36,094 nucleotides of DNA from Bacillota bacterium (GTDB taxonomy: Bacteria; Bacillota; Halanaerobiia; B1SED10-174): NCBI GenBank assembly GCA_007122335.1, contig SKTZ01000155.1:1-36094 (forward strand), written 5' to 3'. The notes beneath the pieces are model-generated. The model saw nothing but the letters and a program-made list of their open reading frames with translations. It did not search any database and had not been told where the DNA came from. This document shows positions 7,661 through 11,114 of the stretch, one piece after another (the first letter of the stretch is position 1; every line of letters starts with the position of its first letter). The translations under genes and the position numbers were made by a program.

Positions 7661-7837
7661 GCTATTCTGTCCTTTCCCCTCCCAATGGTTTTCCTTTAAA
7701 GTCGGAAACCGATTTTATAATAAACTCGCTTCGGAAAACTGTAGGGTGATTCAAAAACTAGAGCCCAGAAAAATCCCGGAACCGGAAATTTCACTGGGGG
7801 TAAACTGACCTTACAAGCGGACTTCTTTGTAAAAAAA

Positions 7838-8902
7838 TTATAACCACCGTTTCCGGCGGAAATAAAAGACCATTCCCAGGGCAACTATTCCCATAATCAT
7901 AAGGACAATGGGATAACCCCAGGGCCACTCCAGCTCGGGCATAAATACAAAATTCATCCCATAAACCCCAGCAACAAAAGTAAGGGGGATAAAAATAGTG
8001 GCAATAATGGTCAGCACTTTCATTACTTCGTTCATCCGATTGCTTACAGTAGAAAGGTAAATATCCATAATACCAGAGATTAAATCCCTCGAAGTTTCAA
8101 CTGTTTCAATAATCTGGATAACATGATCATAAACATCCCGAAGATAAATCAGAGTAGATTCAGAAATCAGGGCAGTTTCTCTGCGCTCCAGTTTGGCAAT
8201 TACTTCCCTCAGGGGCCAAACAGAACGACGCAGGAAAACCATTTCCCTTTTTACCCTGTGTATTTGCTGGAGAAGTTCACTGTCGGCTTTTTCCAGTAAC
8301 AGATCATCAATTTCTTCGATATCCTCGCCCACTTTTTCCAGGATTAAAAAATAAGCATCTACAATAGAATCGAGGAGCCCGTAAAATAAATAATCTGCTC
8401 CTCTGCGGCGAAGCAGTCCTTTCTTTGTCCGCAGCCGCCTTCTTAATTCAGAAAAAACATCACCCTGCTGTTCCTGAAATGAAATAATGAAGTTATTACC
8501 CAGAACCAGGCTTACCTGTTCAGCGATTATGGTATCTTCTTCAGTAGAATAATAGAACATGGGAAGGACCAAAAACAGAAACTCCCCGTAATCCTCAATC
8601 TTGGGTCTCTGATCGGTGCTAAGAATATCTTCTAAAACCAAAGGATGAAGGGAAAAATCTTGTCCGATTTTCTCAATTATTTCTACATCGTGCAATCCAT
8701 CAACATTAACCCAAAGCACTTCTCCTTCACCGGGAAAATTCCTGGAGATGTCTTCGACTTTAATTTCTTTTTCCTCCAGGTTTTCTTCGGAATATTTAAA
8801 AATATTAATCCTGGAGTTTTCTTCTTTTCTCTCTCCAAGATGAACAAGGATCCCCGGAGGATGACCTGCTTTTTGAGACCTTGATTTAATTATCTTTTTC
8901 AT
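7838..8902 (-). CDS. corA: CorA-type magnesium/cobalt channel
   Basis: A 354-residue CorA-family divalent-cation channel. The long soluble N-terminal domain (beta-rich, then long helices around QIHRVKREMVFLRRSVWPLREV) precedes two C-terminal transmembrane helices. The signature YGMNF (about 35 residues from the C-terminus) forms the pore entrance selectivity filter in this family. The C-terminus is short and basic (FYFRRKRWL), as in Thermotoga CorA. Magnesium is the usual ion, with cobalt and nickel also carried by some members. The ATG at 8902 has an AAAGGATG ribosome site; a TTG nine codons earlier is less likely. It is monocistronic as far as can be seen. Confidence 0.93.
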   Translation of the reverse strand: MKKIIKSRSQKAGHPPGILVHLGERKEENSRINIFKYSEENLEEKEIKVEDISRNFPGEGEVLWVNVDGLHDVEIIEKIGQDFSLHPLVLEDILSTDQRPKIEDYGEFLFLVLPMFYYSTEEDTIIAEQVSLVLGNNFIISFQEQQGDVFSELRRRLRTKKGLLRRRGADYLFYGLLDSIVDAYFLILEKVGEDIEEIDDLLLEKADSELLQQIHRVKREMVFLRRSVWPLREVIAKLERRETALISESTLIYLRDVYDHVIQIIETVETSRDLISGIMDIYLSTVSNRMNEVMKVLTIIATIFIPLTFVAGVYGMNFVFMPELEWPWGYPIVLMIMGIVALGMVFYFRRKRWL

Positions 8903-9079
8903 TTTTTCACATCCTTTAAATAAACCCAAAATCTTAATCCATTTAAAGCAAAACCTTTAAAATTTATTTAAATCCCTCTGGTTTTCTTAACCATGGTTTG
9001 CTTATTCCCTCTCGAACCAGATTTTTCAATTATTCCCTTTGGGAAAATCAAGGATTATTGTTGAGTGATCAAAACGTGA

Positions 9080-9718
9080 TTACCATTCCCGAGGAAGATC
9101 CCAATCTTCTTCGGAAAAATCCTCAAGGTATAATCTAACTTCTGTTATACCTATTACTCCCGGGTTATTAACCCAAGGGCTTTTGTATTCACCAAAATAT
9201 TCCTGGTAAACCGGATCATCAGTTCGGAGCAGATGGTTAATCTGGCCATTGAGTTCAACAAATTTTTCCTTAGAAATATCCCAGATTCGCAGATCAAAAA
9301 CGACCGTATTATCTTCTCCGAATTTTGCTCTATGAGCAATTACAAGTCCTTCGTCGGTTTTTTTGAACTGGGTATACTGGATATTAAAACCCGCAGGGAA
9401 AGGGAACTCCTCCCGTAATGTGCCCAGCTGAACCAGCTGGTTATCCTCGGGCCGCAAGCGATATAGAAATAATTTCTGGTAATGAACCCGGGGGGGTCTT
9501 TCAATGGGGAGAATGAACCAAAAAGGTTTCCTTTTCTCCATTACTTTATATTCAAGGAGGAAATAGATATCCCCTTCTTCCACAAAACCATATGAGTTCT
9601 GCCTGGAGTAACTGATTGAATTATTTGCAGATGAAAAACCAGAAAAAGACCCAAGGATAATAAGCACAAGGAAAATAGCTATAAACTTTTCGCTGTGGTT
9701 CATAACTTTAACCTTCAA
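9080..9718 (-). CDS. Secreted protein of unknown function
   Basis: A 212-residue protein that I do not recognise. The best start is a TTG at 9718, placed a few bases after a perfect AAGGAGGTGACC ribosome site; a downstream ATG (at 9703) and an upstream open frame lack such support. The N-terminus is a signal peptide: basic start, hydrophobic FIAIFLVLIILGSFSGF, then SSA before NNS as a likely signal peptidase I site. There is no lipobox. The mature part is beta-rich and aromatic, with no cysteines to speak of and no repeat. It is probably exported to the periplasm or cell wall. The 206 bp on its upstream side before the CRP-like palindrome hold no recognisable gene. Confidence 0.7.
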   Translation of the reverse strand: MKVKVMNHSEKFIAIFLVLIILGSFSGFSSANNSISYSRQNSYGFVEEGDIYFLLEYKVMEKRKPFWFILPIERPPRVHYQKLFLYRLRPEDNQLVQLGTLREEFPFPAGFNIQYTQFKKTDEGLVIAHRAKFGEDNTVVFDLRIWDISKEKFVELNGQINHLLRTDDPVYQEYFGEYKSPWVNNPGVIGITEVRLYLEDFSEEDWDLPREW

Positions 9719-9923
9719 AAAGGTCACCTCCTTGCTTTTGAAGTATTCCCTGGAGTCAATGAAAAATAGCATCCATGCAAAATTGATCTTTATTCATTAT
9801 TTCCCTCCGTTTTCCCTAAGACCTTCAACACTTTAAATCCCTGCTTAATTTTTCCTGAATCAGTTTTGCTTCTTCTGTCAATTTACCCTAAAGGCCTGCT
9901 GAATTATTGATTTTTTTTAAAAG

Positions 9924-9939
9924 TGTGAGCGAGCTCACA
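9924..9939. promoter_or_regulatory. CRP/FNR-type operator
   Basis: The perfect 16-bp palindrome TGTGAGCGAGCTCACA fits the CRP consensus TGTGA-N6-TCACA exactly. Its centre lies about 41.5 bases before the start site predicted from the -10 box at 9961-9966, which is the canonical class II activator position. No good -35 box is present, as expected for an activator-dependent promoter. The protein that binds it is not in this window. Confidence 0.7.
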
Positions 9940-9960
9940 AAATTTGCAAAGACCCGGATA

Positions 9961-9966
9961 TATAAT
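9961..9966 (+). promoter_or_regulatory. -10 box of the lipoprotein promoter
   Basis: A perfect TATAAT with no recognisable -35 hexamer at 16-18 bp spacing. The CRP-like palindrome occupies the -35 region instead. Transcription is predicted to start near 9973, giving a leader of roughly 210 bases before the lipoprotein ATG. Confidence 0.6.
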
Positions 9967-10031
9967 ACTATCAAAGAAGTAGATAATAATAGCATCTTCA
10001 ATTATTTAAGAACATTCAGAACTAAATTAAA

Positions 10032-10120
10032 CGGATGCAATGACCCCCATGCTTAATCTGGACGCCTATTGCCTGGGGAGAGCAAGTAGCGTAACCGGCC
10101 AAAATCCTGGCCGGTTTTTT
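10032..10120 (+). promoter_or_regulatory. Cyclic-di-GMP-II riboswitch with overlapping terminator
   Basis: The leader aligns, from memory, with the crystallised c-di-GMP-II aptamer of Clostridium acetobutylicum. It has CAATGA, then TTAATCTGG (reference UUAAAUUGG), a hairpin, and GTAGCGTAACCGGCC (reference GUAGUGCAACCGACC). The spacing between the 5' CGG and the TGG is the same 27 bases. The basal stem covaries (ACGC/GCGT here, GCAC/GUGC in the reference), and so does the pseudoknot (CCCCCA with loop TGGGG here, AAUGGG with CUCAUU there). The aptamer ends at about 10100 and its last eight bases are the 5' arm of the terminator at 10093-10120. Ligand binding should therefore prevent termination, making an ON switch for the lipoprotein. 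The P1 stem is weak, which is the main reservation. Confidence 0.85.
10093..10120 (+). terminator. Riboswitch expression-platform terminator
   Basis: AACCGGCC pairs perfectly with GGCCGGTT around an eight-base loop and is followed by TTTT. It ends about 60 bases before the lipoprotein ATG, and its 5' arm is shared with the c-di-GMP-II aptamer, so the two structures exclude each other. Confidence 0.9.
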
Positions 10121-10181
10121 GCTTTTAAATTAATTAAACTGCTTTTTGAAACAGAAAAATTACAGCACTGGAGGTAATATT

Positions 10182-11114
10182 ATGAAAAACAAAAAGAGCT
10201 TGCTTTGGTTTTTGGGAGTTTTAGTCCTTCTTCTGGGCTTAACCGGCTGTGATACTCTAATTCAGGGACCTCACGGAACGGTCAATTATCCATTATCTTT
10301 TCAGGGAAGCCCGGGTGACGAGGTTTATCTTGGGGATCCCCAGGTTTTTATCCTCTGGGGAGGACAGCACATTGAAGTGGGAACTGTAACGGTGGGTAAC
10401 AATGCAGATTTTCTTTTTATCACCTACAAAACCATAGAGGGATGGTATTTAACTGACCTTCACCTTTATGTACTCGAAGAAGAACCAACAAACCGCTTAA
10501 ATCCCGGTCACGCCCCTTACAAAGAGGAAAACCTTCCTGAAGGAACCCAGGATTATACCCTGGTTGTTCCCTTTGAAGACCTGGGTAATTTAGAAGCACT
10601 CTGCGGGCTTTCCCTGTGGCTGCAGGCCAAAGCAAATGTTGAAAATATAGTCGATGGTAATTTGTTAGGTGGGGAAACTGCCTATGGCGGGGATATCAAG
10701 GGTTCGCCCTGGTATGGCAATATAGAATATATAGTGCAATGTGATAATGGGGAAAATGGTGATAATGGGGATTGGCAAACGGAAACTGCCTGGGGCGGAA
10801 ACACCTCAGGAAGCGGCGCGGCCTGGTGGTATTATTATGATGCAAGTACTGAAGGAGAACAAACCATTTGGGCTGGGCAGGATCTTAATGCAGGAACGGT
10901 GGAATTGAATGGTGGCACTATCGAAATTAACCTTCTAAATGGCTGGGAACTGCAGGATGTTGTTGAACCCGTTAAAATCCAGGGTTATGAAGATATCCCG
11001 AACTCCCGTCCTGCTGCAGGATTATTTACAACCTACAAAGGTTCAGAGCTGTCAGTGAGTGTGAAAGAATTCCCCTTCTATGCCATCCATCTTGATGTTC
11101 AAAAGCAAAAATAG
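10182..11114 (+). CDS. Riboswitch-controlled surface lipoprotein
   Basis: A 310-residue lipoprotein. The N-terminus is basic (MKNKKS) with a hydrophobic core and a lipobox LTGC, so Cys23 would be lipidated by Lgt. The ATG at 10182 has a GGAGG ribosome site; an in-frame codon at 10146 does not. The mature part has two regions. Residues about 60-165 include DFLFITYKTIEGWYLTDLHLYV and PGHAPYK. Residues about 195-300 include TETAWGG, AWWYYYD and QTIWAGQ, separated by a GENGDNGD linker. These aromatic beta-strand motifs resemble domains I associate with secreted and S-layer-associated proteins, but I cannot name a family. Control by a CRP-like site and a c-di-GMP-II switch suggests a role in attachment or surface behaviour. 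A terminator follows, so it is monocistronic. Confidence 0.85.
   Translation: MKNKKSLLWFLGVLVLLLGLTGCDTLIQGPHGTVNYPLSFQGSPGDEVYLGDPQVFILWGGQHIEVGTVTVGNNADFLFITYKTIEGWYLTDLHLYVLEEEPTNRLNPGHAPYKEENLPEGTQDYTLVVPFEDLGNLEALCGLSLWLQAKANVENIVDGNLLGGETAYGGDIKGSPWYGNIEYIVQCDNGENGDNGDWQTETAWGGNTSGSGAAWWYYYDASTEGEQTIWAGQDLNAGTVELNGGTIEINLLNGWELQDVVEPVKIQGYEDIPNSRPAAGLFTTYKGSELSVSVKEFPFYAIHLDVQKQK

Follow-up and report, generated by a model that had tools for sequence, protein, structure and literature searches.

Predicted class II CRP-type operator in series with a c-di-GMP-II riboswitch upstream of a lipoprotein gene in an uncultured salt-lake bacterium

Class II CRP-dependent promoters of E. coli carry an operator centred at -41.5 as their standard arrangement (PMC5957442). 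In V. cholerae, the promoter of gbpA is activated by cAMP-CRP and followed by the c-di-GMP riboswitch Vc1; the inhibition of gbpA transcription by c-di-GMP was found to be independent of Vc1 (PMC4545359). For HcpR2 of the CRP/FNR family, the published motif is GTAACnnnnGTTAC (GTAACn4GTTAC), which was attributed to the exchange of Glu181 for Pro (PMC1274295). Genes under joint control of a cyclic-nucleotide activator and a c-di-GMP riboswitch have rarely been described, gbpA being the clear precedent that was found, and the open-access literature yielded no paper on a CRP/c-di-GMP riboswitch system in the bacterial class studied here.

The DNA analysed (the window, 36,094 nucleotides) is contig C22 of a metagenome-derived assembly (G000, 2.41 Mb, 98% complete) of an uncultured salt-lake bacterium from a halophilic lineage. 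A predicted CRP-type operator, TGTGAGCGAGCTCACA, is located at 9924-9939 on the forward strand. It consists of TGTGA and TCACA flanking GCGAGC and matches TGTGAN6TCACA at 10 of 10 positions. It is followed by a 21-bp spacer without a -35 hexamer (9940-9960, +) and the -10 element TATAAT (9961-9966, +). The first-pass annotation had described this operator and its spacing relative to TATAAT, and sequence, coordinates and spacing were borne out by re-reading of the window. Its description as a perfect dyad had to be corrected: the two 7-bp arms (TGTGAGC and GCTCACA) enclose a 2-bp centre, GA, and the dyad is not perfect because GA is not self-complementary. With the transcription start predicted 7 bp after the -10 element at 9973 (+), the operator centre (9931.5) falls at -41.5 as had been proposed. 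The absence of a -35 box was likewise found again, as scanning of both strands from 9700 to 10200 gave no sigma-70 promoter in which a -35 element could be recognised. A protein without Pfam match is encoded divergently upstream (9080-9772, -). This gene was rejected as a target of the operator. A shared promoter was dismissed as the reverse strand has no -10 element 21 bp from the operator, and as conservation of the region (82%) extends up to 9918 in the related genome G004, which lacks the operator.

Downstream of the predicted start, a c-di-GMP-II riboswitch aptamer (RF01786) was detected with the covariance model at 10024-10106 (+); its score of 53.7 bits is only marginally above the Rfam gathering cut-off of 53.5. 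An intrinsic terminator with a 9-bp stem, AACCGGCC-loop-GGCCGGTT, and a T tract is located at 10093-10120 (+), where its 5' arm and the aptamer's 3' end overlap. Because terminator and aptamer share this stretch, the riboswitch is predicted to be of the ON type, with termination suppressed upon ligand binding. The gene behind the leader (10182-11114, +) encodes a secreted lipoprotein of 310 aa with the lipobox LTGC and no Pfam family. The outer P1 stem of the aptamer is poorly paired. The occupation of the conserved 3' strand of the aptamer by the terminator arm AACCGGCC is a design common to several riboswitches of the same genus.

We consider it probable that TGTGAGCGAGCTCACA serves as the operator for an activator-dependent promoter of class II, read most likely by a CRP that is encoded together with a cyclase, and that this promoter and the c-di-GMP-II riboswitch form a serial AND gate. 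A CRP-type dimer carrying a cyclic nucleotide would bind at -41.5, occupy the place of the -35 contacts and recruit RNA polymerase to TATAAT, thus replacing the missing -35 function. The transcript would then contain the aptamer with its overlapping terminator, bound c-di-GMP would prevent termination, and the lipoprotein would be made only when both signals are present. There is strong support for the earlier proposal of a CRP/FNR-family activator that uses a class II site ahead of the riboswitch leader, as half-sites, spacing and -10 element are kept in an orthologue and other sites are predicted in the genus.

Proteins of the CRP/FNR family are indeed encoded in G000, in which three of them are visible (L016, L017 and L018). 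L017 is of the HcpR type, adjoins frdX-hcp and has the helix PRPSLSR. The helices of L016 (RVTVTR, NtcA-like) and L018 (CRVTVSK) are both devoid of the Glu that reads TGTGA, and a crp gene for a TGTGA-reading protein was not seen in the G000 assembly. A fourth CRP is present in related genomes, with the helix SRETVSR in G003 and G004 and SRETISR in G002, while G005 has a truncated relative. This helix belongs to the R180-E181-R185 type that reads TGTGA. The sister CRPs also contain the pocket motif GEL...GRS, and their nearest solved relative is the CRP of M. tuberculosis (E=7e-33).

In G002, G003, G004 and G005, crp closes an operon that also contains the genes for a CHASE2-class III cyclase and a FecR protein. 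The operon is conserved in the family (L194, L195, L196 and L197); in G004 (L197), cyclase, fecR and crp are found at 9100-10860, 8412-9113 and 7678-8370, respectively. The cyclase gene of G000 is intact (C118:22-1689) and 90% identical to that of G004. It encodes a CHASE2 and a class III catalytic domain, and its nearest solved structures are the adenylate cyclases 6fht and 2w01. On C118, the outermost 21 bases code for the start of FecR (MKKKV), and the contig end cuts fecR. At the other flank, contig C127 breaks off within a BTAD gene; both flanks were located with one concatenated query of five neighbouring G004 proteins. Between the same flanks, G004 has nothing but crp and the remainder of fecR. 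Because C118 ends inside fecR and the BTAD gene runs off C127, fecR and crp were placed in the C127-C118 assembly gap, in which crp is expected from synteny. A loss of the CRP from G000 was considered and dropped, since the operon is cut by the contig end. The CRP with the helix SRETVSR from this operon is the likely reader of the operator, and the activating cyclic nucleotide would be made by the CHASE2-class III cyclase.

The first signal would accordingly be a cyclic nucleotide, probably cAMP. However, the cyclase motif NTASHLE has His at the position of the transition-state Arg that is usual in class III cyclases, an exchange that might inactivate the enzyme or change what it makes, and in our alignment the sister CRP has Ala-Asn in the place of Thr127-Ser128 of E. 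coli CRP. Owing to these two exchanges, the ligand may not be cAMP, and it is the least certain part of the mechanism. The convergence of two nucleotide signals on one gene, as suggested in the first-pass annotation, is still what we infer, now with a candidate CHASE2-class III cyclase linked to a CRP with the pocket motif.

Additional class II sites were predicted in the genus and family. The gene for the BTAD regulator next to the operon is preceded by TGTGAGCCTAATCACG-TAAAAT in G000, TGTGAGCGGGGTCACT-TATTAT in G003 and TGTGAGCCAAATTACA-TATTAT in G004, in each case with one mismatch and a distance of 21 bp. The same distance separates the predicted site, again with one mismatch, and the -10-like hexamer of a DUF4382 lipoprotein gene in G000 (TGTGTTCTACATCACA-GATAAT). 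In G005, one perfect site serves both the cyclase-fecR-crp operon (TATAAT) and a divergent DUF4382 lipoprotein gene (GATAAT), with the -10 elements exactly 21 bp away on each side. A spacing-aware scan gave no TGTGA site upstream of the cyclase operon in G000, G002 and G004. In G000, TGTGAGCCCAATCATA is located in the intergenic region upstream of a DUF4097 lipoprotein gene (L011 1501-1516; G000:C101:8343-8358) and has no clear -10 element at 21 bp.

Throughout the class, TGTGAN6TCACA-N20-22-TATAAT occurred 21 times in 59 genomes compared to 0 times for the reversed motif. The spacing was exactly 21 bp in 19 of these cases and 22 bp in the other two, and we judge the combination of motif and TATAAT at 20-22 bp to be far beyond chance. 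In other families, the genes that follow such sites were mostly hcp, frdX-like ferredoxins, TetR-cupin pairs, FprA-like and NapDA, as judged by eye from the translated sequences rather than by family search. As hcp, ferredoxin and other genes follow these sites, we take the layout to be an established class II arrangement through which CRP/FNR activators work in the class, with a signal that differs by lineage. Two further sets of sites were noted. In G022 (L120, C1:2421054), TGTGAN6TCACA-22-TATAAT immediately adjoins the beginning of an operon for polysaccharide export, judged by eye to be Wza/Wzz-like, but the start codon overlaps the -10 element, so that class II activation is probably not involved. 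In three genomes of one genus (G023, G033 and G031; L131, L127 and L133), TTGTGAGATAT(C/A)TCACA-21-TATAAT is conserved ahead of an FTR1-like gene and a small gene judged by eye to be DUF2325-like.

Given these class-wide targets, another CRP/FNR protein of G000 could read the site in the window, for instance HcpR next to frdX-hcp, and nitric oxide or redox would then take the place of a nucleotide as the first signal. In other families, the position of this layout before hcp, frdX-like ferredoxin, FprA-like and NapDA genes points to a redox/NO regulator, an HcpR-type gene (L017) is present in G000, and G021 and G025 each have a single CRP/FNR protein, whose helix is SRETVSR/SRETISR and which lacks the cAMP-pocket Arg. 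However, the HcpR of this genus has its own site, CGTAACATTTGTTACC-21-TATACT, in the hcpR/frdX-hcp intergenic region of the L017 operon, which is kept in G004 with a related site in G001 and fits the published HcpR2 motif (PMC1274295). The window site, being TGTGAN6TCACA, does not match this motif. HcpR was ruled out as an unlikely reader by its helix PRPSLSR together with its own GTAACn4GTTAC operator, L016 and L018 lack the required Glu, and a reader among these three proteins is thus considered unlikely.

The class II promoter with the cyclase-linked CRP as its likely reader was compared to the orthologous promoter of one genome of the same genus, G003, which reads TGTGATTCAAATCACA, 21 bp and TATAAT. 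In register, half-sites and -10 element are identical at 16 of 16 bases, whereas N6 and spacer share only 8 of 27 bases (p=2.8e-6 for the contrast); the 21-bp spacer alone has 7 of 21 bases in common, at the same length. The inner operator bases GC/GC of G000 are replaced by TT/AA. Downstream, the G003 aptamer is 87.5% identical over 10033-10104, and promoter and riboswitch are again followed by a lipoprotein orthologue (54% identical). In the G003 assembly, the unit is divided between contigs C105 and C30, both of which end in the same leader sequence. G004 is not informative because operator, promoter, riboswitch and the 5' half of the lipoprotein gene are deleted there. The L029/L041 junction (G004:C109) corresponds to 9919-10618 of the window, i.e. 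a deletion of ~700 bp that leaves a pseudogene remnant and may be either genuine or an artefact of assembly.

The arms TGTGAGC/GCTCACA resemble those of the (symmetric) lac operator, and the dyad could fold. It might thus be a repressor operator, e.g. of the LacI type, or a transcribed hairpin or terminator, yet the change of the inner GC/GC to TT/AA in G003 would break a lac-type core, at the other sites predicted for the genus nothing but TGTGA/TCACA is kept, and no transcript is expected to carry the hairpin, given its position ahead of +1 and the divergent orientation of the gene upstream. These possibilities are regarded as very improbable.

The motif by itself is not rare. TGTGAN6TCACA is present as a single perfect copy in the 2.41-Mb G000 assembly, with ~2-3 copies expected from its base composition (43% G+C) by our own estimate, and 22 copies with one mismatch were counted compared to 22 for the reversed motif. 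Motif frequency was consequently discarded as evidence, since neither number exceeds its expectation or control, and the case is built on position and conservation. Among the 22 near-matches, the commonest distance to a -10-like hexamer was 21 bp (3 cases), while other distances occurred in at most 2 cases each (mean 0.4). The first-pass annotation had raised the concern of many random copies, and copies positioned at promoters turned out not to be scattered through G000. Least probable of all is a chance palindrome near an ordinary promoter: such palindromes are expected in a genome of this size and show no one-mismatch excess, but conservation in the sister species, where half-sites and exact spacing are kept, argues against it, as do the 21 versus 0 class-wide occurrences and the missing -35 box.

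The activator-dependent promoter with its predicted CRP is thus left as the preferred reading, and its combination with a riboswitch was surveyed elsewhere. No CRP site was found in front of 17 other riboswitches from the genus and family, plus G047. At 29 riboswitch loci of the wider class, the only perfect copies precede ferredoxin genes that follow the riboswitch, at a distance of 0.6-1.1 kb downstream from it. With none at the 17 riboswitches and only distant copies at the 29 loci, the combination of CRP site and c-di-GMP riboswitch seems confined to the lipoprotein gene in this genus. We give an even chance to the broader proposal that a cyclic-nucleotide module of CHASE2 cyclase, FecR and CRP governs a small regulon of surface lipoproteins and the BTAD regulator, in which one lipoprotein gene would be a serial two-messenger AND gate that evolved independently of Vibrio gbpA. 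A second, unrelated case with a transcription-terminating class II riboswitch and a candidate cyclase/receptor operon would offer a compact test system for two-messenger logic gates. It also points to a CRP regulon in a class for which no paper on it was found.

Compared to known systems, the promoter resembles class II CRP-dependent promoters of E. coli in its TGTGAN6TCACA operator, the centre at -41.5 from the predicted start, the presence of a -10 element and the absence of a -35 element. It differs in belonging to a Firmicute-side lineage and in its predicted activator, which is not E. coli CRP. With the HcpR2 regulon, it shares the CRP/FNR family and the 21-bp class II spacing found in this genus; the HcpR2 motif GTAACnnnnGTTAC and a helix with Pro at position 181 set that regulon apart, and the window site does not match it (PMC1274295). 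The riboswitch is like others of RF01786 in having an aptamer above the gathering score upstream of a gene for a secreted protein, but here the outer P1 stem is poorly paired, the terminator overlaps the 3' end, and the promoter has an activator site that is absent at the other riboswitches examined. Like gbpA, the locus combines a CRP site, a promoter, a c-di-GMP riboswitch leader and one gene for a secreted protein. It is distinguished by a c-di-GMP-II aptamer with overlapping terminator, another phylum and another gene, and also in mechanism, the inhibition of gbpA by c-di-GMP having been independent of its riboswitch. CRP and a c-di-GMP riboswitch acting on one gene are already known from gbpA, and the present case is an independent variant.
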